The position numbers were made by a program, and so were the translations under genes. This document shows, piece by piece, positions 9,301-54,436 of a stretch of DNA of 64,000 nucleotides. The notes under the pieces were generated by a model. It searched no databases, was not told the DNA's origin, and was given only the letters and a program-made list of their open reading frames with translations. The stretch is from Owenia fusiformis (taxonomy: Eukaryota; Annelida; Polychaeta; Sabellida; Oweniidae), in the NCBI GenBank assembly GCA_903813345.2, contig CAIIXF020000006.1, forward strand, positions 25,119,936-25,183,935. Reading direction: 5' to 3'. How positions within the stretch are numbered: position 1 is the first letter of the stretch; each line of letters starts with the position of its first letter.

Positions 9301-12300
9301 TTGAAAATGTCTGTTATTGCTTGGTTGCATATTGCATATTGAATGTATATTAATGGCAAAAGGAAAAAAACAATTAAAGGAACACAGAAAAGCACAACCA
9401 TTCTTAAGGAAACAAGGTTGTTTGTTTAAGTTATCTATTGTTTAAATGGTAAGCTTTTGCAATCACTCACTTGTCCATCTGTCTGTCCGTCCGTCCGTCT
9501 GTCCATCTGTCTGTCTGTCCGTCAACAATAATGGCACGTTTTAAAACCTCTGTCGACAGGATTCCTGTTTTAAGTTATTTCTGTTCAAGATCAATACAGA
9601 AAACTCCCCTATGACTCCTGGTTCAAAAGCTCGCCTATTTTCAAAATGGCCGTCACTTTTGTCTCATGAAATTCACTTTTGACCCATTTCCTTTAAAACC
9701 TCTGTCGATAGGATTCCTGTTTTAAGTTATTTCTGTTCAAGATCAATACAGAAAACTCCCCTATGACTCCTGGTTCAAAAGCTCGCCTATTTTCAAAATG
9801 GCCATCACTTTTGTCTCGCGAAATTCACTTTTGACCCATTTCCTAGCTTTACAAATAATTTCAGGTGCCTTACAATGTAAAAATCCATGTCAATGTAAAG
9901 GGTAGATATATGTTATAATATTGTTACAAAAAATCAGCGAAAAATTATATGCATTTTTTTATTTTCAGCCATTTTAGTAAACATTGATTTGTCTATCTGA
10001 CTCCAAAATCCACTTTTCGTCAATAACAGTGGCACGTTTTAAAACCTCTGTCGATAGGATTCCTGTTTTGGTTATTTCTGTTCAACATCAATACAGAAAA
10101 CTCCCCTATGACTCCTGGTTCAAAAGCTCGCCTATTTTCAAAATGGCCGCCATTTTTGTCTCGCGAAATTCACTTTTGACCCATTTCCTAGCTTTACAAA
10201 TAATTTCAAGTGTCCTACATTGTAAAAATCCATGTCAATGTAAAGAGAAGATGTATGAAATAATTTTGTTACGAGAAATCAGCGAAAAATTATATCCATT
10301 TTTTTATTTTCAGCCATTTTAGTTAACATTGATTTGTCTATCTGTCTCGCAAAATCCACTTTTAGACCATTTACCTTAAACCCTCTGTCGATAGGATTCT
10401 CGTTTTAAGTTAATTTTGTTCAACATCAATACAAAAAACTCTCCTATGACTCTTGGTTCAAAAGCTCGCCTATTTTCAAAATGGTCGCCATTCTTGTTTC
10501 GCGAAATTCACTTTTTGCCCATTTCCTAGCTTTACAAATAATTTCAGCTGTCCTGCATTGTAAAAAGCCATGTCACTGTAAAGAGTAGTTGAATGAAATA
10601 ATTTTGTTACAAAAAATCGGCAAAATATTATATCTGTTTTTTCTTATTTTCAGCCATTTTAGTTAACATTGATTTGTTTATCTGTCTCGCGAAATCCTCT
10701 TTTGGACCATTTACTTAAAACCTCTGTCGATAGGATTCCAGTTTCACGTTATTTTTGTTCAACATCAATACAAAAAAACTCCCCCTTGACTCCTGGTTCA
10801 AAAGCTTGCCTGATTTCAAAATGGTCGTCATTTTTGTCTCGCGAAATTCAATTTTGGCCCATTTCCTAGCTTTACAAATAATTTCAGGTGTCTTGCATTG
10901 CAAAAAGCCATGTCACTGTAAAGAGTAGTTGTATGAAATAATTTTGTTCCAAATAATTGAAAAAAATTATATCCGTTTTTTTTTCAGCAATTTTACTTAA
11001 CATCGATTTGTCTATCTGTCTCTCCGTCAGTCCAAAATAGTGGCAAGTGGCTTGAAATAATTTTGTTACAAAAAATCAGCAAAAAATTATATCCGTTTTT
11101 CCTGCCACCATGTGAGCCCAGTACCCACGGTACTAATTTTTTTATTTATATTGTTTGTATTGTGCTCCAGGAGTTCCAGACAATCTACCAACAGTTCTTC
11201 CCACATGGAGATCCATCCAAATTTGCCATGTTTGTCTTCAATGTATTTGATGCCAATAAGGTAAGTTTGCCATGTTTGTCTTCAATGTATTTGATGCCAA
11301 TAAGGTAAGTCTGCCATGTTTGTCTTCAATGTATTTGATGCCAATAAGGTAAGTTTGCCATGTTTGTCTTCAATGTATTCGATGCCAATAAGGTAAGTTT
11401 GCCATGTTTGTCTTCAATGTATTCGATGCCAATAAGGTAAGTTTGCCATGTTTGTCTTCAATGTATTTGATGCCAATAAGGTAAGTTTGCCATGTTTGTC
11501 TTCAATGTATTTGATGCCAATAAGGTAAGTTTGCCATGTTTGTCTTCAATGTATTTGATGCCAATACGGTAAGTTTGCCATGTTTGTCTTCAATGTATTT
11601 GATGCCAATAAGGTATGTGATACAGTGTTCTCCACAGGATATTTTCTCAAGTGGGAGCAAAATTCCCGTTTTTATAATTCAGACCAAAATCGGTCAAAGT
11701 ATGCCTATTTTCATGCTTTTTCTCATTCTCAAATGAGTGCAAATAGATTTTCAAGTGGGTGCAAGCATATTTTTAAAATCTCAGGTGGGTGATGCGCCTA
11801 CTTGCTTTAATGCTGAGGAAATCACTGTATATATATCACTTTTATAAAGTTGCCAGGTCCTTTTGTAAAGGGTCCCACCCCTCATTTCATTTCCTTTTAT
11901 ACCAAATATGTATAAAGTTCTGATAAAACATTGTCAAATCTTTTTTTTTTATTTATTTCATTATAATATAACAATGGAATGTACAAAGCATGTGCACTCG
12001 ACACCCTTAGTAATTGGGCGTATCAGTGCTTATATGAAAAATTATTGCAGAGCAATCAAAAAACACAAATGTGTAATTTCAATCAAAAGGTAAGAATAAT
12101 TGATGAAGCTTGACCAGACCTCCTAGACTTCCACTGAGGCGATCATCAGTTCCACACTCGTAAACTACGTGAACACTTGTTCATTGGTTGATGACATTTG
12201 AATGTTTATTTTATATTTTAGGATGGATACATAACATTCCGCGAGTTTATATGTGCGCTGTCAGTCACTTCCAGAGGTTCTTTAGATGAGAAACTAGATT

Positions 12301-15300
12301 GTAAGCATTATCATATTCTTGGTTGTTTGTTTGTTTGTTTTGTTGAGGTTATATTGCAACAAAAGTATGTTTATCCCATACTTGGACGTGTTACAGGTAC
12401 ATAAAGCCGGTTTGTAAAAACTTATATTTTCATCAGCGGGCAGATATAGCTTTACGTCCCGCTCCGAGCGGGCAGATATAGTATATCTGCCCGCAACGTC
12501 ATAATCGCAGCTCGCATATTTGTTCATAATTTGTAACGTTCGCGTAATGACTGTAAACGACAATGGAGAAAACACAGACTATCGGGATCTGTTTGATGGT
12601 TTAAAAAAGGGAAGGAGCATCCACTTAATCAATCAAAAATTAGAGAAAATAAATATGGGAATATTTGAGAGAACAGAAAAATCTGCCCACGGCCAAGAAA
12701 ACAAAACTGGACATGAGTATTCTAAAATATTTCCATGATTGAACAATGTTAACCAGATGACCAAGATTGGTATGGGATAAACATATTATCCTATAGTCGG
12801 TTCAAGATATTGGGATTATCCCTTGGCCAATATAATATATTTTCCCTCGGGACCTGCGGCCCTCGGGCAAATATATTATATTGGCCTCGGGATAATCCCA
12901 ATATCCTGAACCTCATATAGGATAATCTCTATTTACTTCATTTATCTCATACAATGATTTTTCTTATTTATTGAAATAAAAATTGAATTCTTATTTAACT
13001 TTAATCAGTTCAATGCCATCGAGTACACTCAAACAATTTTCCTGTTCAACTCAAATGTGCCTCAACAATTTGAATTTGCCTCACTTATTTGAATTTGCCT
13101 CACTTATTTAAATTTGTCTCACTTATTCGAATTTGCCTCACTTATTTAAATTCGCCTCACTTATTTTAATTTGCCTCACTTATTTAAATTTGCCTCACTT
13201 ATTTTAATTTGCCTCACTTATTTTAATTTGACTCACTTATTTGAATTTGCCTCACTTATTTAAATTTGCCTCACCTATATGAATTTGCCTCACATATTTG
13301 AATTTGCCTCACTTATTTAAATTTGCCTCACTTATTTGAATTTGCCTCACTTATTTAAATTTGCCTCACTTATTTTTAGAGACTGGATAAACCCTCAATC
13401 CATATTATCCTGTTGTAAGAAAATCTGTAGTAATACAATCTTTTAAGTGATGTTTAATTTCACTATTCCAGGGGCTTTCAGTCTCTATGACCTTGACCAA
13501 GATGGCTATATTACAAAAGAAGAGATGGTGGATATCGTTGATGCCATCTATAGCATGGTAGGGAACATGCTTGATTTACCCGTAGATGAAGACACGCCAG
13601 AAAAAAGGGTCAATAAAATATTTTCACAAATGGATACAGTAAGTGAAATGTTTTATTCAATCAAATTTTAAACCCAAATCTCTGAAATATTTCGTTTTAA
13701 TCCATTAGAGATAATACTTAATGCAGTTTTGGAATGATAAAAATTTGTTCAACTTGAATCGAATCTGACTCATTCAAAGGAAAAATCGTAATTCAATTTG
13801 CTAGGGTGATGTCTAAAAAACATTTCTAATCCATTATCTAATATTTTGTCTCCTTAACACAGCCCTAGACTTTGAAGCTGTTAAATGCTAATGTAATACT
13901 TTATCCACCCCTGGGGTTAGGATAGACTAATCGCAGATTATTATTTCCCTTTTGGAATGGCTTTCAACCATTGATATAAATATCTCTCGATTGGGAAAAT
14001 GTATTGTTATGTAACACTTTGCATTTTATAACAAAACAAGCATCCTAATGGCATTTTTATTTTCATTTATTGCCATCAACAAACCTTTTTCGCTTTGTTC
14101 GGATTCATTTTATCTATAAATGAGCACACTTATCAAAACTCTTGACTTGACGTAAATGTTATACTGGGCTCTAATAGCTTGAAATGTGACCTTATTTCAC
14201 TGGGGAGTTGCTCTGTTATCTAATTAGTGGGAGATGTCTCCGGAGAGACAATGGAATATTGTCTATGACTTGAATAACACCAGTTCAGAATGCATCTCGG
14301 ATTTAATGTCACTTGAGAGTATTCCTTCAATTGGTAGCTTTTAACTGTAATTTGCTACTGCCTTATTTTACATCACTGATACAGCTATAAACAATTCACT
14401 CCTTTGAAAGTCTTAAAACAGCGCTATACTGGAAATGTTTTTATTTAAATAAACTGTAAGCTTTGCTCCAGTATATGAAGAATTTTGTTTAAAAATTCAG
14501 AGGATGTTGATTCTGATTCAAAATTGTACAAATCCATTGGACGGTGAAGGCAAATTTTGTCTGAACTCTTTCGAGATAGAAAACTGCGAAAAATGTAGAT
14601 TCGTTGGCTTTCAAGAGAGCATGTATCACCCTTTCATATGAAAGGCCAATTGATGGTGCGATTCTCGTTCTAGAAGATCTACTATATGCCATAACCCTTA
14701 ATAGTCCTTTAATAGCAGCTATAACTATCGTCTCTAGATGTATATGAAGACATAAATGCTGTAAATCACCATGGGAAATCTGCTCGATGATTTGTTTTTA
14801 TTCAGGAGATTATTCACATCAGATATTCTTTGCGCTAATAGAAACAGACTCACTGTTTTTCTGGTGTCATACTTATAATGCTGGCATAATTGAATGATAT
14901 GATCAATATCTTCTATTTGCTGATATTCAAAACAAAACATTCAAGACAAGACTTTGTGTATAACATCATTTAGTCTTTGAGAAAGCAGTTTAATTGATTT
15001 AATTTGTGATTGGTTAAATCATGTCACATGACTCAGGGATAAATTGATGTATCATTATATTAATTTGGAAACAAACAATGATGATGAGGACCTCAGAGGT
15101 GACATCATTGAAAAGGTGTTTTCACCGGGACATATTCCTCGAAGTGTAAACATCCTGACAAATTCCTGATAAAAGTGATTTCTTGTTCTTATTAGACTTG
15201 CCCTCAGAGAGTGGGGATTGTATTAGTATATCATAACAGCAGAGCTGTCAAGTGTCCCGCGAATGGCGGGATTATCCCGCGAATTTGACCAAAATTTGGC

Positions 15301-21775: not shown

Positions 21776-21954
21776 CATGTCATGCTTGAAGAAGTATTTA
21801 AACCATGTTTTGAGATTATTGTATATTATGCATGCATGAGTAATGTAGTCAAAATGTATGATTTGCCAAGAATGTCGCTTTTATATTGGACTTACCTGGT
21901 TAGTGCATGCAAGAGTATTTTACATGCATGCAATAGTAGCCTGTTGACATAATA

Positions 21955-22370
21955 GAGTATTCTACATACATCCTTGGGTATAGTACGTCTGAGGATATTC
22001 CACATATATGCTAGAGTATTTAACATATATGTTAGGATATTTGACATATATGTTAGGATATTTGACATATATGTTAAGGTATTTTACATAATTATATGTT
22101 AGGATATTTGACATATAATAGGATATTTGACATATATGTTAAGGTATTTAACATATATGTTAGGATATTTGACATATGTTAGGATATTTGACATATATGT
22201 TAAGGTATTTTACATAATTATATGTTAGGATATTTGACATATATGTTAAGGTATTTGACAAACATGTTAGGATATGTAACATAAATGTTAAGGTATTCAA
22301 CTTGTATGTTAAGGTATTTGACATATATTAGGATATTTTACATATATGTAAGGGTATTCTACACATTGAC
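21955..22370. repeat. About 21-bp minisatellite
   Basis: Some eighteen units of ATGTTAGGATATTTGACATA type, including a higher-order step where ATAATTATATGTTAGG recurs. Confidence 0.85.
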
Positions 22371-24615: not shown

Positions 24616-24619
24616 TATT

Positions 24620-28391: not shown

Positions 28392-31300
28392 ATGCCACCA
28401 AGCATAGAAAGGGGGGATGGCATACAGTGCCCAAAATGCCACTCAAGGTAAAGAGGGACAATTAGGATTACAAAACTTTCAGAGACCTTTACATGTATGT
28501 TGAAGGCACAATTTACTGAAGTTCAACTCAAAGAAATTCATTGAGACTGTAATAGTACCTGTACACCACTGTTATTATTTAGTACATAGGCTTTTTTATT
28601 GACTTCGATTTCACTATTGAAAAATTTGTATAAACTTGAATGTAAATGTTCTTACTTGCATTCTAGGCACCTTCCCCTGAATTCACTTGTTGAAAATGGC
28701 AAGAATGTATATGCTGCTACCTGCCAGCATTGTGGCCACTTCTTTAAGTTTAGTGCTACACCTACCCCCAAATCTAGTGTTACATTTACAATCAATGGCA
28801 AGGCCTATACAGGTATGTCTATCATGTTAATTGTTTCAACTTGTAAAATGATGATGGTCATCTCAGATATGACAATGATATATTTTGAAGATAATGCCCG
28901 ATAATGACACGTAACATGTAAGTGTACATGTAACTAGACATGTACAGTGTACTAATATGTAACTTGAAATGTGCTGATCAACTTAATTCCCTAAAGCACG
29001 GACCTGCAGAGGTAGATTCTTCTCTTTTTTGGGGAAAAATTTTGAATTTTTAGTGGAATTTTTTGCTTCACAATATACCTGTAGTTTAATTTATTTCTTC
29101 CTTCATTTCCAAATTTTAACTTGTTCTGAAATCTTTTGATTTTTACACCAAATTTTTCACCAAATTTCCAACAATTTTTTTAATTTTCACATTCAAATAC
29201 AAAAGTGAAACTTATCATTTTTGTGATGTCATGAAAACAGTTATGGGATATTCTCTATTTCATGATTGTTTTTTTCATCCATGATGTGCTGAGTCATGCA
29301 CAACAACTTTAGAATCTGATGGTTAACAATGCTGTTGAATAGGTGTATGTTTGCTTAAAGAACCAGGCTGTTCTCTAAAGATTCCCTATCTGTATATATT
29401 TTCTAGTTGGAAACACATATCCAGGCTCAATGTCTCTCAATGCTTACATCAGGGAGGTTGCTAGGCTACCAGGAACTAAAGTGATGTGTGCTGAAGGAGG
29501 ATGCGGATGTTGTGTTGTCACGGTTACCCATGATGGAAAATCCTATGCAATGAACTCTGTAAGTTCTTTTGAAGTTCAGTTTTGTAAATGTTAAAAACTA
29601 AAAACATTAAGCTTATTATTAGGAGGCCCCATCGGGGGGCCTCCTATCAATTTTGTAGATATTATTATTAGGAGGCCCTCCTGAAAGGGCCTCCTATAGC
29701 TTTTGTAGCTTTTCTTTATTATTCTTTATTCTTTATTCTTTATTTATTATTCTTCCTAAGCATTTTTCTCCTACTTCCAACTAGCTTTCAACTACTTACT
29801 ATATGCTCCTACTAGACCCCTGGGCTGGAATAGGGGGGAAAATATTTTTTATCTAGGTCAAGGTCAAAGGTCAAAATCTAGGTCAAATCTAAGTTTTTTT
29901 TCAAGTTTCTCAAGTTTGTCATTATACTTCATTATTTCTTGCGATGAATTAAACTGAAGCTACATTTAAGTATTCTCTACAAATTGATCACTATATGTCA
30001 GCATTAAATTTTTACCGTTTTTGAGATAGTTGACGTCAAAAAACGGTCAAAAAAGGTCATTTTTCAACTTGCTTCAATCTGACCAAATTTTTTTTTAAAA
30101 ATCATCTACAAGTTCCAAGGAGTCCGAATCTGACCTCAGATTTGACCTTTGACCTTTAGTTGACCTTCAGTGACCTTCGAAAGGTCAGAAAAGTTGATTT
30201 TTCAAATTGAGTCTTTGGATTCAAATTTAAGTCAGTCTAATTACAAATAGCCCACTGAGGTCTAAAAAAGTAAAAATTTCAAGGTCAAAGGTCAAGGTCA
30301 TCAAATTAGGTCACAAACTGTGCTATCTAAGTTTCTCATAGTTCAAGACTACAAATCAATATTTTTAATTGGAAGTCAAGATGTACATTCCTCTGAGGGT
30401 TCTACACATATTAGTTATTGACTATTTATTAAAATTTTGTCCCAGTTTTGAGATATAAGAGCTCAAAAACTGAAAAAGGTCAATTTTTTAAAGTTTATAA
30501 GGTCAAATTTTAACTTGCTTCAAATTCACCCAACTTTTTTTTAAAAATCATCTACAACTTCTCAGGAGTTCATATTTAACCTCAGATTTGACATTTGACC
30601 TTTAGTTGACCTTCAGTGACCTTCGAAAGGTCAGAAAAGTTGATTTTTCAAATTGAGTCTTTGGATTCAAATTTAAGTCAGTCTAATTACAAATAGCCCA
30701 CTGAGGTCTAAAAAAGTAAAAATTTCAAGGTCAAAGGTCAAGGTCATCAAATTAGGTCACAAACTGTGCTATCTAAGTTTCTCATAGTTCAAGACTACAA
30801 ATCAATATTTTTAATTGGAAGTCAAGATGTACATTCCTCTGAGGGTTCTACACATATTAGTCATTGACTATTTATTAAAATTTTGTCCCAGTTTTGAGAT
30901 ATAAGAGCTCAAAAACTGAAAAAGGTCAATTTTTTAAAGTTTATAAGGTCAAATTTTAACTTGCTTCAAATTCACCCAACTTTTTTTTAAAAATCATCTA
31001 CAACTTCTCAGGAGTTCATATTTAACCTCAGATTTGACATTTGACCTTTAGTTGACCTTCAGTGACCTTCGAAAGGTCAGAAAAGTTGATTTTTCAAATT
31101 GAGTTTTTGGATTCAAATTTAGGGTAAGCCTAATCATAAAAGACCCACTGGGCTCTAAAACAGTAAAATTTTCAAGGTCAAGGGTCACGGTTATCAAATT
31201 AGGTCAAAGGTCAAAATCTAGGTCAAATCGAAATTTTTTTCAAGTTTCTCAACTTTGTCCTTATACTTCATTATTTCTTGCGATAAATTAAACTTAAACT

Positions 31301-34300
31301 ACATTTAAGTATTTTCTACAAATTGTTCACTATATGTCAGCATTGAATTTTTACCATTTTTGAGATATTTGACGTCGAAAATGGTCAAAAAAGGTAATTT
31401 TTCAACTTGCTTCAATCTGACCAAAATTTTTTTTAAGAATCATCTACAAATTCCCAGGAGTCCGAATCTGACCTCATATTTGACCTTTGACCTTTAGTTG
31501 ACCTTCAATGACCTTCGAAAGGTAAGAAAAGTTGATTTTTCAAATTGAGTCTTTGGATTCAAATTTAGGTCAGCCTGATTAAAGAAGACCTACTGAGGTC
31601 TAAAAGGGTAAAACTTTTCAAGGTCAAAGGTCAAGATCATGAAATTAGGTCACAAACTGTTTGAGACTACAAACCAATATTTTTAACCCGAAGTCGAAAT
31701 ATACACATCCCTCTAAGGGTTCTACACATATAAGCAATTGACTATCTAATAGAATTTTGTCCCAGTTTGAGATATAAGAGTTCAAAAATTGAAAAAAGGT
31801 CAATTATGAAATTTTTCAAGGTCAAATTTAAACTTGCTTCAAATTGACAAAATCTTTTTTTTGAAAATCATCTACAAGTTCTCAAGAGTTCACATCTGAC
31901 CTCAGATTTGATATTTGTCATTTAGTTGACCTTCAAATTGTCAAAAATGCCTAAGAGGGCCTCCGTGAGATTGCTTGCAATCTTCAAAAGTCTAGTTATT
32001 ATTATTCTTTATTATTTATTCTTCCTCCCTCTTTTTCTCCTACTTCCAACTACCTTTCAACTAGGTACTACATAATCCTACTAGGGACCTGGGCTGAACT
32101 TGGCGGGAAAGGAATTTTTATCTAGGTCAAGGTCAAAGGTCAAAATCTAGGTCAAATCTAAGTTTTTTTCAAGTTTCTCAAATCCTGACACTACACTTAA
32201 ATATTTTTGGCTGAATTTTTGCACACAGATAGATATTAGTATTCTATTAGTCTTAGCCTTTTGCCGTCTAGAGAAATTTTGCCTAGATTTTGAGATATTG
32301 AAGGTCAAAAAAAGGTCAAAAAAGGTCTTTTTTCAACTTGCTTCAAATTTACCAATTTTTTTTTTAAAACTCATCTACAAGTTCTCAGGATTCCAAATCT
32401 GACCTTACTTTTGACCTTTGACCTTTGGTTGACCTTCAGTGACCTCCGAAAGGTCAAAAAAGTTGATTTTTCAAATCGATTTTCTGGATTCAAATTTAGG
32501 TATATTTATTCACAAAAGATCTTCTGAGGTCTAAAAAAGTAAAATTTGCAAGATCAAAGGTCAAGGTCATCAAACGAAATCACAAACTGTGTTTTCTAAG
32601 TTTCTCAAAATTGGAGACTACAAATCAATTTTTTTTACTGAAAGTCAGAATATATATTCCTCTAAAGGTTCTACACATATTAGCAATTGACTATTTATTA
32701 AAATTTTGCTCCAGTTTTGAGATATTAGAACTCAAAAACTGAAAAAAGGTCAAATTTCAAAATTTTTCAAGGTCAAATTTTAACTTGCTCTAAATTGACC
32801 AAACCTTTTTTTTAAAAGCATCTACAAGATCTCAGGAACTCAAATCTGACCTTAGTTTTGACCTATGACCTTTAGTTGACCTTCAGTGACCTTCGAAAGG
32901 TCAAAAAAGTTAATTTTTCAAATTGATTTTCTGGATTCAAATTTAGGTTTCTTCAATCAGAAAAGATATACTGAGGTCTAAAAAAGTAAAACCTGTAAGG
33001 TCAAAGGTCAAGGTCATCAAACAAGATCACAAACTGTGTTTTCTAAGTTTCTCAAAGTTTGTGACTACAAATCAATATTTTTGAATTAAAGTCAGGATAT
33101 ATATTCCTCTAAAGGGTTTTCACATAATAACAATTGATTATCTATTAAAATTCTGCACCAGTTTTGAGATATTGGACCTCAAAAACTGAAAAAGGTCTAA
33201 TGTTGAAATTTTTCAAGGTCAAATTTCACATTGCTTCAAATTGACCAAACTTTTTTTTAAAAATCATCTACAAGATGCCTGGAGTTCATATATGTCCTTG
33301 TATTTAAGATTTGACCTTTGGCTGACCTTTAAATGTTCAAAAAAGCCTACGGGGCCTCCGTAAGATTGCTTGCAATCTTCTAGTTATTATTAGGATTAAG
33401 CTTTGCACTGACAACTCTCATAAAAATAATTATCAGTCAATTTGTTTTTGAGTGAGACATATAACCCAAAAATATATATTGCAGTGTCTATGCCTCATAT
33501 ATTTCATTTTCTATATCCTATATATTGCAGTGTCAAAGTCCCATATATTGCAGTGGCTATGGGGCATATGTTGCAGTGTCTTTGCCTCATATATTATGTG
33601 TCTATGCCCCATATATTGCAGTGTCTGTGCATCATATATTGCTTTGCCTATGCCTCATATATTGCATTGTCTGTGGCCCATATATCACAGTATCTATGCC
33701 CCATATATGGCATTGCCTGTCTATGTCCCATATGTGTTACTGTGTCCATGCCCTGCAGTGTCTATGCCCCATATATCACAGTGTATCTGCCCCATATATT
33801 ACGTGTCTATGCTCCCTATAATACAGTGTCTATGCTCCATATGTTGCAATGTCTGTGCCCCATATATTGCAGAGTCTATGACTCATATATTGCAGTGTCT
33901 ATGTCTCTATATTGCTCTATCTATGTCCCATATATTGCACTATCTGTCTATGTCTCATATTGCTGTGTCCATGCCCCATATATTGCAGTGTCTATAGCCT
34001 ATGTTGCTGTATCTATGCCCCATATATCGCAGTGTCTATGCCCCATATATTTCAGTGTCTGTGTCCCATATATTCTTGTGATGGCTGGGACATTCAAACA
34101 ACAGAGGGAATAGGGGGAAAGAGACAGGGCTTCCACCCCATTCAGGAGAAACTGGCTGACCTGAATGGAAGCCAGTGTGGTTACTGTAGCCCAGGAATGG
34201 TCATGAACATGTATGGGTAAGTAACTATGTATGGCTACATGTTTGGTAAAATACTTCAGCATTTTAAATTTTATGCCTAGTGTGTAAATTGCCACCAGAC

Positions 34301-34663
34301 CCTCTGTATATAAATTGTATAATGGATGCATTAAATCATGATTGTTCTTTGTTTCTATTCTAGGTTTCTATTAACTTATATTCTAGGTCTACATTTACTC
34401 ATGTTCTAAGTTTCTATTAAATCATGTTCTCTATTTCTATTAAATCAAATTCTAGGTTTCTATTTAATCATATTCTAGGTTTCTGTTAACTCATGTTCTA
34501 TATTTCTTTTAATCAATGTTTGTATGTCTATTAAACATAAATTTCTATTTAATCCTGTTCAAAGTTTCTTTTGAATTATATTCTAGGTTTCTCTCTGGAA
34601 ACTCGAAGCCAACTCAGCAGCAAATAGAAGATGCCTTTGATGGGAACATATGCAGGTGCACTG
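28392..34663 (+). CDS. Oxidase exons 1-5: zinc-ribbon-like head and both 2Fe-2S domains
   Basis: Residues 1-54 carry CPKC (13-16) and CQHC (38-41), a CxxC-x21-CxxC pattern typical of a zinc ribbon and not part of standard family members, which begin near the VTFTINGK strand (here about 57). The plant-type cluster uses C95, C100 and C103 in CAEGGCGCC, plus C119, the first residue of exon 4. The second cluster uses QCGYC (158-162) and CRC (194-196). [21 protein letters not shown] and GNICRCTG are family hallmarks. Exon 3 ends at 29558 and exon 4 starts at 34056 across a 4.5-kb intron full of repeats. Exons 4 and 5 are each preceded by an array that copies their own acceptor. Confidence 0.92.
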
Positions 34664-43600: not shown

Positions 43601-46600
43601 CCGATTTCTAACCTGTTGGCTAATATGAACCTGTGACCCCTTTTCTGACCAATAAGCTTTGTAATCCTGTGACTCATCACCTTATCCTGTATATTATGGT
43701 GTTTTATAGGAGAGTGAAAATTCATCTTGGGCTGCACACTAACATGAAAATGGTTGGAGGTCGAGTGCCATGGCTTGCCAAATATAAGGTTGTGTATTTG
43801 TTTGTTTGTTTGTTTGTTTGCAAATATCATTCAATTATAACAGCATTGGCCTATAGCCAAGTGTCACCAACATTTATGAAATGCCTACTCTATAGTGAAA
43901 GTTGTTTAATTTAGAAATAAGCCATTTTTTTCACAAGAAATAAAATACGTTTTCGTTGGCATTTAAGGTGGGGTTTACCGAGGAGGGCTTATTGAGGGGA
44001 GTTGTTATTCAGTATTACGCAGACCTAGGGAGTGGTTCGAAATCTGTCCTTAATCCTTTCATATGGGCAGATAATGGTATGTTTGTAGCAGCCTAATGTG
44101 CACCATTCAAAGATTTGCATGACACCCCCCATGGGGTAAGGAATGGGGAGCAACCTAGTAAGTCAACCTCCCCACCCTTGAGCAATAATAGTTCGTGAAA
44201 TATAGTTAAATTGCAATTACCATGCAATTCAAAAGTCCCTACTTTTGGTATGAAGTACTATATCAAAATCCCAGCCTTTGGGACAAAACTGCATGTCAGG
44301 TTCCCTCCCCATATGCGTGGTTCCATGCAAACCTTTGATATGGTATGTTACATAGCCACCTGCTACTGCATGCAGCCCAGTACAGCAAAAGTACATCACT
44401 CATGGAATTAAAATGTCTCAAGTTCAATTCTCAACTTGGCATTGAATTTGGCACACTTTAATTCTGTTTGCATATGGCTTTTTCACATTAGTATACACAT
44501 TGTAATTAGTTACTTTGTTAGTCCATAGAGGGCACCATTGTCCACTACCAAAGATGGCTTTCCTAAACAGACATTATAAGTTGTAATGTAATGCTAAATG
44601 AATAACTCAAAATTCTAAAGCCTGTTAATCTTGCCGACGTGGAATTAATTTAAAAGAGTTGATACAGTTGCCATTTTGCTGTTTCGGGTAGCCATTCTTT
44701 ATGTTTATAGCTCCTCATACATATGATATCCTATGCATCTTTATGTATGATAATCCAGGTTGGGTATACAGACGAAGGCCTTCTGAAAGGTGTTAAAATC
44801 CAGTACTATTGTGACCTTGGGTGCACCTCTAATGGGGGTGGGACACCCTTTGTATGGAGTGATAATGGTAGGTTTTTATGTCACCATCAAAAATGGTGGC
44901 ATATTGTTATGGTCTCCAACTTTTGTGAATGGCATTTGACTTATTGTGGTCATTGATGTAACAAATGGCAGGTGGTGACATTTTTCATGTTCAAGCTTTT
45001 TAATACTTCTCACAGTCTTTTGTGTTTTGACCCATTTACAATCTGTTATGTCCTGCAACCCCCATCCATTACAAGACCAGACTGATGATCACTATTGTAC
45101 CTCAACACTGAAAATAGATCATAATATAGTTCAATGATTATAGTTAAGTGGAAAAAAGTTACCTGCTATCAATGATTCTCCCTTTAATAACAATCATAGA
45201 TAAGATGTGACAATCAGAAATGTAACAATCAAAGAGAATTTAATAATTAGTAAAATTATAGAGAACGATTAAGAAAGATTACAATCATTGACAATGTAAC
45301 AGTCATGATCAGTAAGGCAACAGTCACAGAATGTGTAACAATCAGTAAGGTTCTGAATCCCTGCTATATTTTGTATTATTAAATCTCCAAGGCAATAAGG
45401 TGATGTATTTTGATCATTATTTCCAGCATACTACTGTCAGAATTGGCACTTTTTGTATGACTGTTTGAAGACCAATACTGCAGCCAAAACAGCATGTAGA
45501 GCACCAGGTAAGAGAATAAATGTCTACACTTTTTAAAGAAGTAATTCTTGCATTTTCTGCCATTATGAAACTGACTTCCATTTGGCCTTCCTATTGAACA
45601 ATATGAAAGCTACATCTGAGATCATTGATCTTACCATTATCAAAGGATACGACTCAGGGAAGAGGGTAACATCACTTTACAACACCATGTCCAAAGATTA
45701 CATGTGCCAATCATGAAAAGTAGATAAATGAATGGGAAAATGTCTCGACGTATAGGTGTATGCTGTTGACAATATTGTAAAATCAGGCAACGTTAGCACT
45801 TGTTTGCTCCATTGCCAATTGTTGTTATATTTCTGAATCTAGGATCATCGTTTCTAATTCCAGGATCCACTCCTGCCATATTTATAATGGAGTCCCTAAT
45901 GGACCATGTGGCCACTGCTCTGGGCAAAGACCCTGCGGAAGTTAGGAAAGTCAATCTCTATCAGGATGGTCAGGTAGAAAATTATATCCAGATTCTGCCC
46001 TACCATTATTATATCCAGATTCTGCCCTACCATTTTCTTGAAAATTGATGCTAGATTACCGCAAAATTGTTTTACAAAATATTGTGCTGTATTGGAAACA
46101 AGAAAAAATGGCTCAAGGATGTGATAAGGAAAAGGAGTATGATATTATAATTATTAGCATTGCCTGAAAGCAGTTTCTCTGTTATGTGATTTAGCATTTC
46201 TTTATGGATGCCTATTGCATCAATGCATTAACCCTGCCCGAAAGGTAATTATTAGGTCATTATGATCCCTAGCACAAGTTCATAAGTGTATAGTAGACAA
46301 ATTGAAAAGGAACATTCTGAAATACAACCAGTCACCGGGAAAAAAAGTCCCCAGTATCCCAAATAATGAGTTATTTGGAATTTTAGCTAACTCCTACAAG
46401 CACAGTAAAGCTTCAGGGTTGTCACATCAGAGACGTTGTCAGTCAAATTGAGGCTTCCTCCCAGATTGTACAACGTAAGAAGGATATAGAGACCTTTAAT
46501 CAAGCCAATCGCTGGAAAAAACGCGGATTATCCCTCATACCCCTCAAGTTTACTGTTGGGCTGGCTGGCATGACTCAAGGTATATGATTGGGCAATTGAT

Positions 46601-49600
46601 GAAAATTGATTTACAAGTAAAGATTAGTGTCTCATGTATGTATGTTTTACTTTTTTCTCTAAGTTGAATACTTAAATTTTATGTCACTATGACATGAAAT
46701 ATGCCTGATTTTTCCCAATATAGGCTGCCCTTGGGAGGCTCTATATTTGGGCAAAAACGAGGTGAGGTAAGGGGGCTATATCAGGGTAATCGGATATATA
46801 GGGGTTATGCACTGGGAGGTTTTGGATACAGGGAATATCCCGAGGGATATACAATATATCTTCCCGAGGGACCGAAGGGACCGAGGGAGGATGTATTGTA
46901 TATCCCAAGGGATATTCCATGTATCCAAACCGACCGTGCATAACTGGTGTATCTCATACTTGAGTGGGTTTAGGGTAGATATAAGCTTTATATTGAACAT
47001 TTTCGTAATATTCTTTTTGTTCAATACAATGAAATTGTAACATTTAAACTTAAAAAATTTTAATTTTAAAATTAAAACTTTTGGTATTTAAACTTTTTTA
47101 AACTTTTGAAAAATTCCCGGGAGCGGGATGGATATATTATATCTGCCCGCATTTGGCCTGGAGCGGGACATATACAATATATCCTGCCCGCTCCTCAGAT
47201 ACGATATATATTCCCGGGTGATATCTACCCCAAACCCACTCAAGTATGAGATACAGCCCTTTAACTTTCCCATTGACTTCCATACAAATGCTTTGCTAGG
47301 TATGTAATACAGGTATATATGGGACAAAATCCATTGTACCAATGACACCTTAAATTTAACATTTTCAATACAAATAATAAAACAATAAGTTAAGCCATTT
47401 TTTCAAGATGATTTTAAGCTGATTATTTTGTTTATGTAAGAACATATGAGATCACCCCTAATGTTTTGCTATGTTTTATTTTTATTCTCAGGTGTCCAGA
47501 TCACGGTTTATGGTAATGATGGTACAATTACAATATCCCATGGTGGCATTGAGATGGGACAGGGAATCAACACTAAGGTAAGCCTGTAAAGTAAAACCGC
47601 ATTACAACAAAACTTTTAAAGGGGCACAAAAGACTAGAGAGTGTAAATTTTTTTATGTATAATATTTATTTCTCCTAGAGAGTGTAAAATGGTGGGAAGC
47701 AATATCTTCAAAAACTATTCCATTGTTTTTCTTACAATTATTTTTTTATCGTCTAAATGAAGCTGAGAGTTGAGATCTCTGGACAAATACAGAAATTATT
47801 GAAGTTTTTAGATGCAGAAACATCCAAATTCATTTGAATTAGAAAATATGCATAATATGGAATGGTGAGAGCAAAAAAATATTTCAAATTTTGACAATTT
47901 TTTTCAACTTCCTGTCAACTCCTCTGAAGTCATGTTGCTCCTTTAATATTGTTTTGTTTCACATTATCTCCTGACCAACCTCTGCTACACATGTAATGCT
48001 TTATAGGCTGTTCAAACTGTCGCCTATGAGTTGAAGACATTGGGTGTGACTATGGACATCATAAATGTTGGCCCAACAGATACGCAGGGAGCAGGAGCCA
48101 ATGGCCAAGTCAGCGGAGGTAGCGTCACATCTGGGGCAGTTTGTCTTGTGAGTTGGATTTATAAGTATGCGGTCATATGTAAAAAGTCTGATGGTTAATG
48201 TGTAAAAATATTATCAGACATTAATGGCCACACATCATAGACAAAAAACACACCTCAATGAATTCATGATAATTGTGTCGATTTCCTGCAAGATTAATCA
48301 ACTACAAGTACAACTGAGTCCAGATTCATGTAATTTCTATACTTCTTACTTTTCTTAAACTCCACTGTTATATTTTGTTAATTTATTCATTTTATTTCAG
48401 GGTTTCGTTAATGCCTGTGCATTACTGAAGCAGCGCCTTGCCCCAGTTAGAGCCTCCCTACCGAACCCTACATGGAAACAGCTAATCGCAAAGGCGCAAC
48501 AGGAAGGCATTAATCTAACTCTCCAGTACTGGTATGTGGTGAATCATTGTGTGGTATTCTTCTTAGGTTGATGGGTGGGTTGGGGAAATTTTACAAGAAT
48601 TGGCACTGAAAAGTTCATGAGTTCTGACTTCATTGCGTGAAAATACCTTGAATTTTAACATCATTTGGTAATAATTCCATTAGATATGATGTCTAATTTA
48701 TTAAATTCAAATATTTTGACATTTGATCATAAGATTTGTAGTGTGTTTAATTCAACTATTGTCTTGTAATTTAAGGGAGAACCCTCAGAAGCCTACCTAC
48801 TATTCCTATGGAGCTACAGTATCAGAAGCAGAGCTTGACATCCTTACAGGAGAATACATCATTAAAAGAATGGACTTGCTCTATGATTGTGGACAAAGGT
48901 TTGTTAGGCAATCCATTCAATATATGTCAATATATTGATGCTCATAATTCAAATATATAATTAATTGCATAAAAGGTACATAAAATATAGAAGATAGATA
49001 CAATTTGAGAGTCAAAGTTCAAAAATGAACCAAACGTTATTTGAACGACTAAAATTAGGATTGTAAGATTACTAGTAATATTGACATGATTTTGCTTCCA
49101 AAATTTTACACGCTTTCCTTTCTACTGCCCTATGTTTTTAGCTCACATGGTGAGCTTTTGCAATCACTCACTTGTCCGTCTGTCTGTCCGTACGTCCGTC
49201 CGTCTGTCCGTCCGTCTGTCCGTCCGTCTGTCCGTCCGTCTGTCCGTCCATCTGTCCGTCAACAATAGTGGCACGTTTTAAAAACTCTGTCGATAGGATT
49301 CCTGTTTTAAGTTATTTCTGTTCAACATCAATACAGAAAACCCCCCTATGACTCCTGGTTCAAAAGCTCGCCTATTTTCAAAATGGCCGTCACTTTTGTC
49401 TTGCAAAATTCACTTTTAGCCCATTTCCTAGCTAACCTCTGTCAATAGGATTCCTGTTTTAAGTTATTTCTGTTCAACATCAATACAGAAAAACCCCCTA
49501 TGACTCCTGGTTCAAAAGCTCGTCTATTTTCAAAATGGCCGTCACTTTTGTCTCGCGAAATTTACTTTTGGCCCATTTCCTAGCTTTACAAATAATTTCA

Positions 49601-52600
49601 GGTGTCCTACATTGTAAAAATCCATGTCAATGTAAAGATTAGATATATGAAATAATTTTGTTACAAAAAATCAGCGAAAAATTGTATCCATTTTTTTATT
49701 TTCAGCCATTTTAGTTAACATTGATTTGTCTGTCTGACTCGCGAAATCCACTTTCTGTCAATAACAGTGGCACGTTTTAAAACCTCTGTCGATAGGATTC
49801 ATGTTTTAAGTTATTTCTGTTCAACATCAATTCAGAAAACTCCCCTATGACTCCTGGTTCAAAAGCTCGCCTATTTTCAAACTGGCCGCCATTTTTGTCT
49901 CGCGAAATTCACTTTTGACCCATTTCCTTGCTTTACAAATAATTTCAAGTGTCCTACATTGTAAAAATCCATGTCAATGTAAAGAGAAGATGTATGAAAT
50001 AATTTTGTTACGAAAAATCAGCGAAAAATTATATCCATTTATTTATTTTCAGCCATTTTAGTTAACATTGATTTGTCCATCTGTCTCGCAAAATCCACTT
50101 TTGGACCATTTACCTTAAACCCTCTGTCGATAGGATTCCCATTTTAAGTTAATTTTGTTCAACATCAATACAAAAAACTCTCCTATGACTCTTGGTTCAA
50201 AAGCTCGCCTATTTTCAAAATGGTTGCCATTCTTGTTTCGCGAAATTCACTTTTTGCCCATTTCCTAGCTTTACAAATAATTTCAGCTGTCCTGCATTGA
50301 AAAAAGCCATGTCACTGTAAAAGGTAGTTGTATGAAATAATTATCCCATCGAACGAAGTTCGGAGGGATATAGGGAACGCCTCCGTCCGTCCGTCCGTAC
50401 GTACGTCCGTCCGTACGTACGTCCGTCCGTACGTCCGTCCGTCCGTACGTACGTCCGTCCGTCCGTCTGTCCGTCCGTCCGGGCAATAACTCAAATACCG
50501 TTGGCCCGATTTTGTTCATATTTTGTACACATATACCCTATGGGGGTAGAAGTTCTGCTCGAAAGCCGATTTTCAAAATGGCCACTCATTTCAAAATGGC
50601 GGCCATTTTAGTGCCGATTTTACAGTAATTTAGGTGTAATATGTAAAACTGTAATAGCTATATGTTTTAAATGTAAAAAAATTATAAAGGACATTAATAA
50701 TGCTACAAATGTAGATATTAAAAAAGCACATGGCAGCCATCTTGAAAAATGGCAGCCTTTACTTGTCATTTTACGATTTTTGCTATAACTCAAAAAATAG
50801 TGGAGCGATTTTGTTCATATTTGGTTTGTGAATACTATAAGCATTGCACACTGTCTAAAGACACTTTTGGTAGAAGGCGGCCATTTTGAAAAATGGCCGC
50901 CATTTTAACATATTTTACTATAACTCGAAAAGTAGTGGAGCGATTTTGTTCATATTTGGTATGTGAATACTATAAGCATGGCACACTGTCCTATGACACT
51001 TTTGGTAGAAGGCGGCCATTTTGAAAAATGGCCGCCATTTTAATGTATTTTACTATAACTCGAAAAGTAGTGGAGTGATTTTGTTCATATTTGGTATGTG
51101 AATACTATAAGCATGGCACACTGTCTATTTCTAATGACACTTTTGGTAGACAGTGGCCATTTTGAAAAATGGCCACCATTTTAACGTATTTTACTATAAC
51201 TCGAAAAGTAGTAGAGCGATTTTGTTCATATTTGATATGTGAATACTTTAAGCATGGCACATTGCCTAATAAAACTTTGGGGCGTAGTCGGCCATTTTCA
51301 AAAATGGCTACCATTTTTATGTGTGTTATTTTTTTTTTTACAAGTACTTGTGCTATTTTTCAAAAATTTTAGAGGTGGCTACTTAAAAGCATATTATTTC
51401 TTCTGATGACAACTTGGCTAGTGAGCAACCATTTTGAAAATGGTGGCCTTTCTGGTGTGTTGTTTTATGATATTTGCTATTCGTTTGTAAAAATGCCAGC
51501 CATTTCTGTTCGATGGGATTCGCTACGCTTTGGCGTTGCCGTTGTTCTGGTTTTGTTACAAAAAATCGGCAAAATATTATATCCGTTTTTTTTATTTTCA
51601 GCCATTTTAGTTAACATTGATTTGTCCATCTGTCTCGCGAAATCCTCTTTTTGACCATTTGCTTAAAACCTCTGTCGATAGGATTCCAGTTTCAAGTTAT
51701 TTTTGTTCAACATCAAAACAAAAAACTCCCCTATGACTCCTGGTTCAAAAGCTTGCCTGATTTCAAAATGGTCGCCATTTTTGTCTCGCGAAATTCAATT
51801 TTGGCCCATTTCCTAGCTTTACAAATAATTTCAGGTGTCTTGCATTGCAAAAAGCCATGTCACTGTAAAGAGTAGTTGTATGAAATAATTTTGTTACAAA
51901 TTATTGGCAAAAAATTATATCCGTTTTTTTTTCAGCCATTTTAATTGACTGAGAGACAGATGGCTTGAAATAATTTTGTAACAAAAAATCAGCAAAAATT
52001 TATATCCGTTTTTTTCTGTCACCATGTGAGCCCAGTACCCACGGTACTAATTTTTTAATTGTTTTTTTGCAATTCAAAACATATCAGTTGTGATTTTTTA
52101 ATCATGAAGGTTAACTCTCTCTTTGTAGTATGAATCCGTCTGTTGACATTGGCCAAATAGAGGGAGCTGTGACAATGGGCCTAGGCTATTGGCTACTTGA
52201 GAAAATGCGATATAACCCACAGAGTGGGGAAAATCTGACCAGTGGAACATGGGTAATATCTACTATAATATGTGTATTAAATCTTATGTTTATTGACCTT
52301 ATAGTATGCATACTGAATCTTTAAATATGTGTATTGACGCCTATATTCCAAGCTCATAGCCAGGGAGGGAGTTGGGGAGGGGGTGGGGGTTCAGGGGTTC
52401 AAGCAAACACCCCCTGGCCAAAAATTTCTTTCAAAATCATGTAGTATTTCACCATTGTCGGGCACTTCAGGTGATTTAAAACTTTGACACTCTGGTCTTT
52501 AAAACAATTTATATTATAGGACTTTTGGAATTTTTCAAAAACTGGTTCCCATTGTCAAAAGTTGCCTATGCACCAGTATTCTATATGTGCACTAAATGGT

Positions 52601-54436
52601 ATTGATTATTGAACTATTGATTCATATTCTATATGTGCATTGTTCCAGGAGTACAAGCCACCATTTGCCAAAGATATTCCAGTTGACCTGAGAATTGATC
52701 TTCTCAAGAATGCTGCATTCCCAGCTGGTGTACTCAGCTCTAAAGGTAACTTATTTATTACCTTGAAATCCATTGGATATTAAAACAGTAGAGACTAATG
52801 AGAATTTATAGATAAACCTTAGTATACTGTTTTCCAGTTTTTATGCCATTACCAGAAGTGGTGACATTTTGTTATAGTCACCAACTTTTTGTGGACGGTG
52901 TTTGGCGGTTGGTGTTCAGCTGTTAGTGTTCAGCATTTGACATCCGTAACAAATGGCAGGTGGTTACAATTTTTACAATTTGCACGTTAATGCCTTGTTC
53001 ATTTTTGAAACAACAGTACCAAATTCAAGAGTCAAATTCAATTCCCATATGTACAGTGCCATCTAGAAAGGAACTTTCAAATCTTGTAGGTTGAGGAATA
53101 AATTTTACAATATCTAATAATGGCTACTGTAATATAAATAAGAAGAGAAACTTACTACAAGGGCTAAATTGCCTCAATACCAAGTTATTTTAAAGGTAAC
53201 CAGAGATTTAAAAGGGCTAATTTGCTATAGAGGCCAAACTGGTCAGTTGAGCCCAGGTTGTCCACATGTAAAGACATAGGCAGTTGTTTTAGATAGATAA
53301 TTTTAGGTGTGCACACTTTAGATAAGTTAGATAATCAAGATAAGTTACAAATTACAAATGAAAGAAACATCTTACCAACAAGGAGACAAGAACAACATGC
53401 TAAGGTAATCTTTCGTTCACAGCTACGTAATAATGTAGTGTGTATTTCTAGCTGTAGCAGAGCCTCCACTTTGTATGAGCTGCTCAGTGTTGTTTGCCAT
53501 CAAAAGATGTATTGAAGCTGCCCGCAGAGACCAGAATATGAGCCCCTCTGACTATTTTGCGCTGGGTATGTGTCTGTACTATAGATTTCATTTGCACTAA
53601 ATAAATATTTTTGCGCTGTAATAAATATATCTGCACTTTGTGTATTAACACTATAAAATACATTTTAACTATAAACAAATCACTTTTGAGTAAATTATAT
53701 TTTTAATCACACTCAGACTCATTTTCAAAATCTCAAATTATTAACAGGAAGCAATGAATAAATTGCCAGAAGACTACTCATGCCTGGGTCACATTTGCTG
53801 CGATTCATCGGCCGGCGCCTGGCTGATTGAGTACTTTGTTCAAAATTGAATACGTTTCTGAACAAAATGCTCAATCGGCCGGGCGCCGTAGTGAAAATTG
53901 GAGCAAATGTGACCAAGGCATAACTTGTATGTCTACCTGGCATCTACCTGTATATATTCTAGATTCACCTGTATGTATTTAGATTCACCTGTATGTATTT
54001 AGATTCACCTGTATGTATTTAGATTCACCTGTATGTATTTTAGATTCACCTGTATGTATTTTAGATTCACCTGTATGTATTTTAGATTCACCTGTATGTA
54101 TTTAGATTCACCTACCTGTATGTATTTTAGATTCACCTGTATGTATTTTAGATTCACCTGTATGTATTTTAGATTCACCTGTGTGTATTTTAGATTCACC
54201 TGTGTGTATTTTAGATTCACCTGTATGTATTTTAGATTCACCTGTATGTATTTTAGATTCACCTGTATGTATTTAGATTCACCTACCTGTATGTATTTAG
54301 ATTCACCTGTATGTATTTAGATTCACCTGTATATATTTTAGATTCACCTGTATGTATTTTAGATGCTCCAGCCACAGTTGAGATGGTGCTCACCCAGTGT
54401 TTGCCTCAACCCACAGACTACACATATGGTCAGTAA
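28392..54436 (+). CDS. Aldehyde oxidase/xanthine dehydrogenase-family molybdo-flavoenzyme, 35 exons, complete
   Basis: Predicted molybdenum hydroxylase that oxidises aldehydes or N-heterocycles and passes electrons Moco to two 2Fe-2S to FAD. Exons 1-35 join with consistent phases to 3945 nt (1314 residues), near the family's usual 1330. Exons: 28392-28447, 28667-28812, 29407-29558, 34056-34216, 34587-34663, 35091-35170, 35452-35653, 35896-35966, 36478-36627, 37016-37118, 37462-37607, 38073-38183, 38473-38539, 39221-39321, 39700-39858, 40255-40368, 40740-40820, 41368-41425, 41939-42088, 42534-42613, 42959-43071, 43323-43427, 43710-43788, 43968-44076 or 44759-44867, 45427-45507, 45864-45973, 46387-46579, 47492-47577, 48007-48147, 48401-48531, 48776-48898, 52129-52252, 52649-52745, 53452-53565, 54363-54436. 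An in-frame TAG at 28380-28382 supports the start. The catalytic Glu is kept (VAEPP), but xanthine-pocket residues are not, so I favour an aldehyde-oxidase-like or novel activity over xanthine dehydrogenase. Confidence 0.92.
29615..31995. repeat. 446-bp-period tandem repeat, first block
   Basis: Landmark TTTAGTTGAC occurs at about 30155, 30601, 31047 and 31493 (steps of exactly 446) and again near 31921. The first steps are almost identical. Units are packed with AAGGTCAAAGGTCAAGGTCA. The left end has GGAGGCCCC..GGGGGGCCTCC inverted motifs and the right end AGAGGGCCTCCGTGAGATTG, then a TTATTATTATTC junction. Confidence 0.9.
31996..33400. repeat. 446-bp-type tandem repeat, second block
   Basis: Starts with the same TTATTCTTCC..CTTTTTCTCCTACTTCC leader as the first block (compare 29745-29780) and ends GGGGCCTCCGTAAGATTGCT plus TCTTCTAGTTATTATTAGG. 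It contains about three more diverged GGTCAAAGGTCA-rich units. The two blocks look like head-to-tail copies of one element. Confidence 0.85.
33478..34055 (+). repeat. 23-bp minisatellite ending in the exon-4 acceptor
   Basis: About two dozen units of TGTCTATGCCCCATATATTG followed by CAG. Each unit ends with a CAG acceptor-like site and begins like exon 4 (TGTCTGTGTCCCATATATTC). The last junction, TTTCAG at 34050-34055, is the real acceptor by reading frame (C119 of the Fe-S cluster follows). Confidence 0.93.
34335..34586 (+). repeat. 23-bp minisatellite ending in the exon-5 acceptor
   Basis: About eleven units of TTCTAGGTTTCTATTAAATC plus ATG/ATA, strictly 23 bp apart but more diverged than the exon-4 array. 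Several copies keep TTCTAG|GTTTCT; the final one is the true acceptor before exon 5 (GTTTCTCTCTGG). Confidence 0.88.
35091..39858 (+). CDS. Oxidase exons 6-15: linker, FAD-binding domain and CO-dehydrogenase flavoprotein C-terminal domain
   Basis: [12 protein letters not shown] continues the second Fe-S domain. [13 protein letters not shown] with FVSGNSGKG resembles the family's W-x-P-x-x-L-x-x-L and VVGNTEIG segment. [20 protein letters not shown] matches the flavin-contacting SVGGN-x-x-x-x-x-P-x-SD block. The loop after it, acidic (REDDIA) in NAD-dependent xanthine dehydrogenases, reads [13 protein letters not shown], so the NAD-binding signature is missing. The second 2Fe-2S to FAD linker contains a Cys-rich patch ([12 protein letters not shown]). 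Confidence 0.9.
36290..36465. repeat. Dispersed SINE-like repeat, one of about eight copies
   Basis: Shared segments are CACCAACTTTTTGTGGA, GTTTGGCGGTTGGTGTTCAG, GTAACAAATGGCAGGTGGTG, ACATTTTGCATGTTAATGCC and TTGT. Copies, some partial or reversed: about 27235, 27470, 36290-36465, 37690-37830, 42138-42245, 44880-44995, 52845-53005, 58430-58512. Length about 110-175 bp, no coding capacity. I saw no tRNA-like head. Confidence 0.7.
37132..37333. mobile_element. MITE with TACAGTNAAACCTG inverted ends
   Basis: Starts TACAGTCAAACCTGTCC and ends AAGTTTCACTGTA. It contains GAACACCTCTTGGACC and AGAGGTGTTTGG. It lies 14 bp after the donor of oxidase exon 10. Confidence 0.7.
39009..39195. mobile_element. 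Degenerate MITE of the GTGGAACACC family
   Basis: AGTGGAGCACCTCTGTAAG, TGGAACACCTCACAAGTGG and GTGTTCCACTTGTAGG blocks resemble the other family members, but the ends are worn. Confidence 0.5.
40255..54436 (+). CDS. Oxidase exons 16-35: molybdopterin-binding domains and catalytic site
   Basis: Starts at [11 protein letters not shown] (about residue 595), the usual entry to the Moco region. TQYHMHMET corresponds to the conserved Gln of [21 protein letters not shown] (801-811) corresponds to GGGFGGKETRS, with Tyr for Phe and Ile where xanthine enzymes have the substrate-binding Glu. CRAPGSTPA (914-922) replaces FRGFGGPQ, so the stacking Phe is lost. [14 protein letters not shown] is fully typical. 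SSKAVAEPPL places the catalytic Glu at about 1256. The protein ends [18 protein letters not shown] and TAA. Confidence 0.92.
40834..41071. mobile_element. MITE with TACAGTAAAACTTG inverted ends
   Basis: Begins TACAGTAAAACTTGTC and ends ACAAGTTTTATTGTA. It shares GGCCAAGAAAAAGTGTTCAC and ATTGAGAGGTGTT with the copy at 37132. It begins 13 bp after the donor of oxidase exon 17. Confidence 0.75.
42716..42880. mobile_element. MITE with TACAGTGAAACCTG inverted ends
   Basis: Begins TACAGTGAAACCTGTAAAG and ends AGACAGGTTTTACTAG. It contains GTGGAACACCTCTG. Confidence 0.7.
43968..44076 (+). CDS. Oxidase alternative exon 24a
   Basis: 109 nt, acceptor TTTAAG, donor GTATGT, entering phase 0 and leaving phase 1. 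It encodes [20 protein letters not shown], then [16 protein letters not shown]. It joins correctly to exon 23 (ending ..WLAKYK) and exon 25 (starting AYYCQNW). The purine-rich TTTAAG acceptor is weaker than that of 24b. Confidence 0.85.
44759..44867 (+). CDS. Oxidase alternative exon 24b
   Basis: 109 nt, acceptor AATCCAG, donor GTAGGT, with the same phases as 24a. It encodes [20 protein letters not shown], then [16 protein letters not shown]: 22 of 36 residues match 24a while silent positions differ freely. Joining 24a to 24b shifts frame and meets TAA within thirteen codons, so use should be mutually exclusive. Confidence 0.85.
46770..47260. repeat. Compound hairpin element in oxidase intron 27
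   Basis: An outer pair (GTATCTCATACTTGAGTGGG near 46951 and its reverse complement at about 47235-47254) encloses an inner hairpin at 47110-47220 (GGGAGCGGGA, ATATCTGCCCGC). To the left, a separate hairpin at 46800-46945 pairs TTGGATACAGGGAATATCCC with GGGATATTCCATGTATCCAA around a CCGAGGGACCGAAGGGACCG loop. Confidence 0.75.
49138..52057. mobile_element. Second copy of the foldback family (one arm), with a nested insertion
   Basis: Starts AGCTCACATGGTGAGCTTTT, carries a (GTCC)n run at 49178-49258, and has several subrepeats matching 9450-11130. It ends CCCAGTACCCACGGTACTAAT. The mirror arm is absent. It lies in oxidase intron 31 and ends about 75 bp before exon 32. Confidence 0.8.
50343..51555. 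mobile_element. Distinct element inserted into the foldback copy
   Basis: The flanking element sequence GAAATAATT/TTGTTACAAAAAATCGGC is interrupted here. The ends are ATCCCATCGAACGAA and TTCTGTTCGATGGGATTCG, mutually inverted for about 11 bp. It holds a (CCGTCCGTACGT)n tract at about 50380-50480 and about five 117-140 bp units with AAGGCGGCCATTTTGAAAAA and TGGCCGCCATTTTAA hairpins. Confidence 0.75.
53952..54362 (+). repeat. 20-22 bp minisatellite ending in the exon-35 acceptor
   Basis: Nineteen units of ATTCACCTGTATGTATTTTA plus G (21 bp), some with one T less or an added CTAC. Each holds a TATTTTAG acceptor-like site, and the final TATTTTAG at 54355-54362 is the real one before ATGCTCCAGCC. 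Confidence 0.93.

Follow-up and report, generated by a model that had tools for sequence, protein, structure and literature searches.

Minisatellites with splice sites are already known from single cases, e.g. that of the human gene 6-16 (IFI6, G1P3). Its splice-site-bearing repeat units lie at an exon–intron boundary and offer several donors; downstream units serve as donors and are used, yielding three mRNA species (Turri et al. 1995, as cited in PMC4526556 and also present in the reference list of PMC3618361). We analysed a 64,000-nucleotide stretch of the annelid Owenia fusiformis (the window; positions 25,119,936–25,183,935 of contig CAIIXF020000006.1, in an assembly of 498 Mb), in which four minisatellites adjoin splice junctions of an NCS-1-like gene and an aldehyde oxidase gene. 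They belong to a class that recurs in many further genes of this genome. In 6-16 the units are used in mRNA, whereas the Owenia alternatives tested were mostly non-productive by frame; 6-16 is a donor array, whereas more of the Owenia arrays sit at acceptors than at donors.

The internal tandem repeats described from human genes in segmental duplications (De Grassi and Ciccarelli 2009, PMC2812944), whose units average 30 bp with 4 copies, are likewise minisatellites that alter gene structure and may form novel introns at exon–intron boundaries, but they are confined to recent human paralogs, and half of them are in coding sequence. The passages cited from that paper give no count, over a whole genome, of arrays that span junctions. 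Tandem duplication as a route of intron gain, described for potato RdRp (PMC4974935) and Drosophila (PMC2891723), also copies splice signals, and the potato case crosses an intron–exon boundary. Those duplications create a new intron, whereas the Owenia duplications are repeated over and over next to an intron which a paralog shares in the single comparison made. An intronic minisatellite of C. elegans is over-represented near alternative exons (PMC4039745), which is a different association. Our searches of open-licence PMC papers brought up no genome-wide report of junction-spanning arrays. The reading we prefer for the Owenia class, with a probability of about 0.7, is neutral minisatellite birth with a modest bias to exon ends, in which the exon-proximal copy still works.

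Four arrays at splice junctions in the window

The exon model of the oxidase was built from open frames joined at scored splice sites and comprises 32 exons, with some possibly missed. The protein assembled by hand from it matched aldehyde oxidase 7px0 among solved structures (E = 1.1e-239), and xanthine dehydrogenase (XDH) structures likewise. Its exon 4 starts with CLCPIY, where XDH 1fo4 has CLAPIC. The exons of the NCS gene matched NCS-1 2l2e in the PDB (E = 1.2e-61). On homology and reading frame, the four splice sites are judged to be real: an NCS-1-like donor at 11260/11261 and oxidase acceptors at 34055/34056 (exon 4), 34586/34587 (exon 5) and 54362/54363 (last exon). The exons and arrays are as follows (a slash marks the junction; exon numbers are those of the original prediction, which was made from the letters of the window; array limits, copies and identities are from Tandem Repeats Finder, TRF, where given).

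11171..11260, + strand: NCS-1-like exon (exon 2), from the match to 2l2e, acceptor and frame; followed by gtaagt
11222..11615, + strand: 44-bp donor array; TRF, 9.0 copies, 98% identity; 39 exon and 5 intron bases per unit
33474..34074, + strand: 23-bp acceptor array before exon 4; TRF, 26.3 copies, 72% identity; unit atatattgcag/TGTCTATGCCCC
34056..34216, + strand: aldehyde oxidase exon (exon 4), from homology to solved structures
34356..34592, + strand: 23-bp acceptor array before exon 5; about 10 copies; unit attctag/GTTTCTATTAAATCAT, the exon side starting GTTTCT
34587..34663, + strand: aldehyde oxidase exon (exon 5), from homology; starts (G)
53946..54364, + strand: 21-bp acceptor array before the last exon; TRF, 19.9 copies, 93% identity; unit cacctgtatgtattttag/ATT
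54363..54433, + strand: last aldehyde oxidase exon (exon 35), from sequence and homology; starts (D), ends TAA

The original prediction had placed four arrays at real junctions. All four were recovered by TRF, and three of them (the NCS donor array and two oxidase acceptor arrays) carry exon and intron sequence across the splice site. The exon bases inside the TRF limits number 39 (NCS), 19 (exon 4), 6 (exon 5) and 2 (last exon), which makes the last-exon array a weak case. The arrays are boundary minisatellites of the 6-16/IFI6 type, i.e. tandem units that hold the host splice site and touch the junction, the last-exon array marginally so.

Eight of the nine donors in the NCS array read GTAAG; the last copy, beside unique intron, reads GTATG (GTATGT). 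The exon-proximal donor is that at 11260/11261. The exon half of the exon-4 unit encodes CLCP, where XDH 1fo4 has CLAP. TRF reported the exon-5 array in several rows with units of 23–69 bp and identities of 67–81%. Units of the last-exon array read LDSP, near the exon's own LDAP; other XDHs have LDSP at that place, and the unit's letters may be ancestral. In a genome DNA search (40 of 1378 candidates scored, common words skipped), the NCS 44-bp unit matched only its own locus.

The window has other repeats too. A 446-bp tandem repeat of about 7 copies (30053–33329) occupies the oxidase intron directly before the exon-4 array. Repeats of 152 and 345–347 bp with GACG/GTCC-type microsatellites are present at 7939–11022 and 49174–50481 and are reminiscent of mollusc pearl/Helentron elements. 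The stretch from 11000, right before NCS exon 2, recurs elsewhere in the genome with at least 39 further long matches.

After TRF rows had been merged by hand, the window has 22 arrays with a score of at least 100 and a period of at least 15, and 36 exons annotated in this analysis. Only the four named arrays overlap any of these exons, as predicted. The accompanying claim that four such arrays in 64 kb exceed chance was borne out for the 14 arrays with units <130 bp, both with at least 6 exon bases (3 seen, 0.36 expected, P = 0.005) and with at least 2 (4 seen, 0.44 expected, P = 0.0007). These P values are optimistic because the arrays were the reason the window was flagged. With the eight longer-unit arrays added, 3 were seen against 3.3 expected and chance was not rejected (P = 0.7).

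Origin of the exon-4 array and decay of inner splice sites

In a paralogous oxidase gene (locus L169; C6:31.57 Mb) the exon-4 acceptor occurs once, as TTATATTTCAG/TGCCTATGCCCT, with no array. The letters CTATGC are common to the consensus of the exon-4 array unit and this paralog, and the window exon has CTGTGT. The simplest reading, from sequence comparison, is that the array grew out of the junction after the two oxidase genes parted and retained older exon letters, in agreement with the predicted origin. Since the corresponding acceptor of L169 lacks an array, the exon-4 intron does not derive from the array, and intron gain by tandem duplication does not describe this array, the one of the four that was compared. 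None of seven XDH/AOX stretches held a counted spanning array; the exon-4 start was located only in L169.

For the NCS, exon-4 and last-exon arrays, each candidate site was joined to the neighbouring exon and the frame was read. Among nine NCS donors joined to the next exon, the first alone was open. Among ten AG/TGTC acceptors of the exon-4 array joined to the previous exon, the last alone was open. The frames thus argue against inner-unit splicing for these two arrays. The final three of 19 acceptors of the last-exon array were open, with inserts of 0, 7 and 14 residues. In three of the four window arrays the alternatives therefore appear mostly non-productive by frame.

The conservation of splice dinucleotides was read in six arrays, i.e. 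the four window arrays and two from loci described below (L028 and L140). The original prediction had stated that every unit carries the site. This held for the NCS array (8 units) and the last-exon array (19 units), where the site was intact in all units with the working copy left out. It did not hold for the two diverged arrays. Before exon 4 the decoy AG was intact in 56% of 25 units, against a mean of 73% over all dinucleotides, and ranked 19th of 22 for conservation; before exon 5 it was intact in 36% of 11 units (read from 34340), against a mean of 64%, and ranked 21st of 22. The six arrays give no hint of decoy conservation, and old decoys decay.

Selection that keeps decoy or alternative sites for regulated or variable isoforms, as the original prediction had offered, would be in keeping with two of the open acceptors at the last oxidase exon, which add 7 or 14 residues in frame, and with the intact sites of the four less diverged arrays (NCS, last-exon, L028 and L140). 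We consider it improbable. Only one of nine NCS sites and one of ten exon-4 sites are productive, AG falls below the average dinucleotide in both diverged arrays, and one paralog lacks the array. Frame preference was also absent: unit length is a multiple of three in 9 of 24 arrays, counting those in the window and those sampled elsewhere.

Junction-spanning arrays in other genes

Exon ends elsewhere in the genome were sampled through protein domain searches. The kinesin and kinase searches gave at least 144 matches each; of the first-look candidates, 124 of 880 were scored for kinase, 122 of 218 for kinesin and 65 of 210 for myosin, and the myosin, ABC, P450 and XDH/AOX matches are partial samples. 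Sample 1 comprised 120 stretches with 163 exon matches (95 kinesin, 68 kinase) and 326 exon ends, hand-chosen by match length with near-duplicates dropped. Sample 2 comprised 68 exons (136 ends) of myosin, kinesin, XDH/AOX, ABC, P450 and kinase genes. The rule for a spanning array was fixed before sample 2 was fetched. A further set, made up of 15 stretches of myosin genes that are for the most part compact, provided 77 exons (20 added by paralogy) with 154 ends.

Spanning arrays were found at the following loci.

Sample 1: L001, L006, L017, L024, L028, L029, L032, L037, L038, L039, L062, L072 (both ends), L081, L097
Sample 2 (5 loci): L140, L144, L155, L158, L194

In samples 1 and 2 together, 20 of 462 exon ends (19 of 231 exons) lay inside spanning arrays, and the window arrays are accordingly no local accident. 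Sample 1 contributed 15 spanning arrays in 14 exons, with units of 33–159 bp. At L001, about 18 copies of a 159-bp unit include much of a kinesin exon, and the last copy continues into the remaining exon; its repeats had already shown up as multiple matches in the domain search, and leaving L001 out gives sample 1 a count of 14 of 325 ends. In those arrays whose sequence was read, it is the exon-proximal copy that runs into the intact exon. Judging by position, some of the arrays probably belong to one gene (L032 with L039; L037 with L038 and L158). No array (score ≥100) lay wholly inside the 44,535 bp of exon matches.

Several candidates were not counted as spanning. At L041 the hidden Markov model match ran into the intron, and at L121 a 34-bp donor array has only about 3 exon bases; the unit-conditioned test below enters both as non-spanning arrays. 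A second 54-bp array at L081 was not counted either. L177 (21 bp × 3, score 73) and L098 have a junction-derived look but fall below the score rule. The exon at L140 has minisatellites on both sides: its acceptor lies in a 32-bp array, and a second array (26 bp × 19; 683–1175) starts a few bases past the donor, without holding the junction, and was not counted.

TRF identities range from 67–81% (the exon-5 array of the window) to 99% (L038, L039 and L158), so the arrays differ in age. An assembly artefact, in which the assembler made or enlarged the repeats, might be suspected from the several arrays that are 97–99% identical. It is the least probable explanation we weighed, because assemblers do not invent unit-specific variants and the diverged arrays carry them (exon 4, 72%; L024, L028, L062, L081 and L140, 86–90%). 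Spanning arrays are also spread over 10 of the contigs C1–C12, counting the window and the sampled loci.

The mechanism we propose starts with a tandem duplication of about 20–260 bp straddling a splice site, which would give birth to a minisatellite. Slippage or unequal exchange would then expand the array into the intron, and the copy beside the intact exon (the first donor or the last acceptor) would remain the working site. Since this copy adjoins the exon and the rest are intronic, the remaining copies would be free to expand and decay. The junction would be the outermost place for exon sequence in a minisatellite, because duplication within an exon would harm the protein. Such births would be frequent in this genome, somewhat more so within about 100 bp of exons, and the arrays are probably harmless by-products of a genome prone to such repeats. 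We infer the copy spliced in cells, the neutrality and the mode of expansion from these observations. The exon/intron split of the unit was compatible with a uniform distribution (21 of 24 arrays, Kolmogorov–Smirnov P = 0.09).

A possible preference for exon ends

From the density of arrays in the flanks, 2.0–2.2 spanning arrays were expected in sample 1 (score thresholds 80–150), against the 15 seen. This plain expectation ignores that long units span a junction more easily and are lost near stretch ends. A test conditioned on unit length and detectability, devised after the data had been seen, gave 5.5 expected in sample 1 (P = 3e-5). Chance alone is rejected against flank density in sample 1 and, given unit lengths, for samples 1 and 2 together; it could not be rejected for the myosin set. 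The actual significance is lower than these P values indicate, because arrays that share a gene are not independent. Whatever their kind, arrays cluster near exons, with 13 of 30 flank arrays within 100 bp, and the strictly junctional excess is consequently only about 1.7-fold.

Several results weigh against the reading of neutral birth with a modest bias. The unit-conditioned count of samples 1 and 2 (20 seen, 8.0 expected, P = 5e-6) exceeds a uniform neutral process; against intron within 100 bp of exons, 12 were expected (P = 0.003). Taken by itself, sample 2 is weak (5 seen, 2.5 expected, unit-conditioned; P = 0.05, borderline). In the myosin set none of the 154 ends lay in a spanning array, and the L121 array merely touches its junction. 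Acceptor arrays outnumber donor arrays (17 versus 7, P = 0.06), which the reading does not explain; the splice dinucleotides of the four less diverged arrays are all intact; and array loss in L169, instead of its never having had one, could also account for the unarrayed paralog.

A mutational process aimed at junctions or exon ends, which the original prediction had proposed and which would make them minisatellite nurseries, is compatible with neutral birth and would add a cause to it, e.g. transcription-coupled breaks, RNA–DNA hybrids or the base-composition step at the border. Its appeal lies in the excess over flank density and over the unit-conditioned expectation, in the crowding of flank arrays in the first 100 bp, and in the longer units of spanning arrays (32–259 bp) compared with flank arrays (16–136 bp). 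The small excess over near-exon intron speaks against it, in sample 2 being only 5 versus 3.6 (P = 0.26), and so does the myosin set (0 seen, 0.8 expected). With that set added to samples 1 and 2, 9.1 were expected (20 seen, P = 8e-5). The sample may be tilted by partial candidate scoring, and L001, one of the 15, was known to be repetitive beforehand. Spanning arrays were found at 4 of 71 strong exon matches (≥60 bits) and 10 of 92 weak ones, with no significant difference, which makes a search bias less likely though still conceivable. We regard the process as a tentative addition that is rather doubtful.

Equally tentative is the wider proposal that exon ends are preferred birthplaces of minisatellites, where junction-centred duplication would array a few percent of ends, lengthen introns and supply spare sites. 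If this were true and the sample were representative, thousands of exon ends would be arrayed genome-wide. With a few percent of its sampled exon ends arrayed, the genome offers a natural experiment in how the spliceosome picks one of several to about twenty neighbouring copies of a site, in how introns grow and in whether breakage or slippage is commoner at junctions than in other DNA.

Duplicated exons were observed as well. A tandem exon duplication is seen at L112 (C10:2256896-2257205), where one stretch of the kinase profile is matched twice at a distance of about 178 bp. At G000:C9:37986009-37994334, twelve matches cover nearly the same myosin-head stretch (about 18–84 of the profile) and resemble an alternative-exon cluster. 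In the window, two adjacent oxidase exons (43968–44076 and from 44759) are homologous; they may be mutually exclusive or the product of an exon duplication in tandem.
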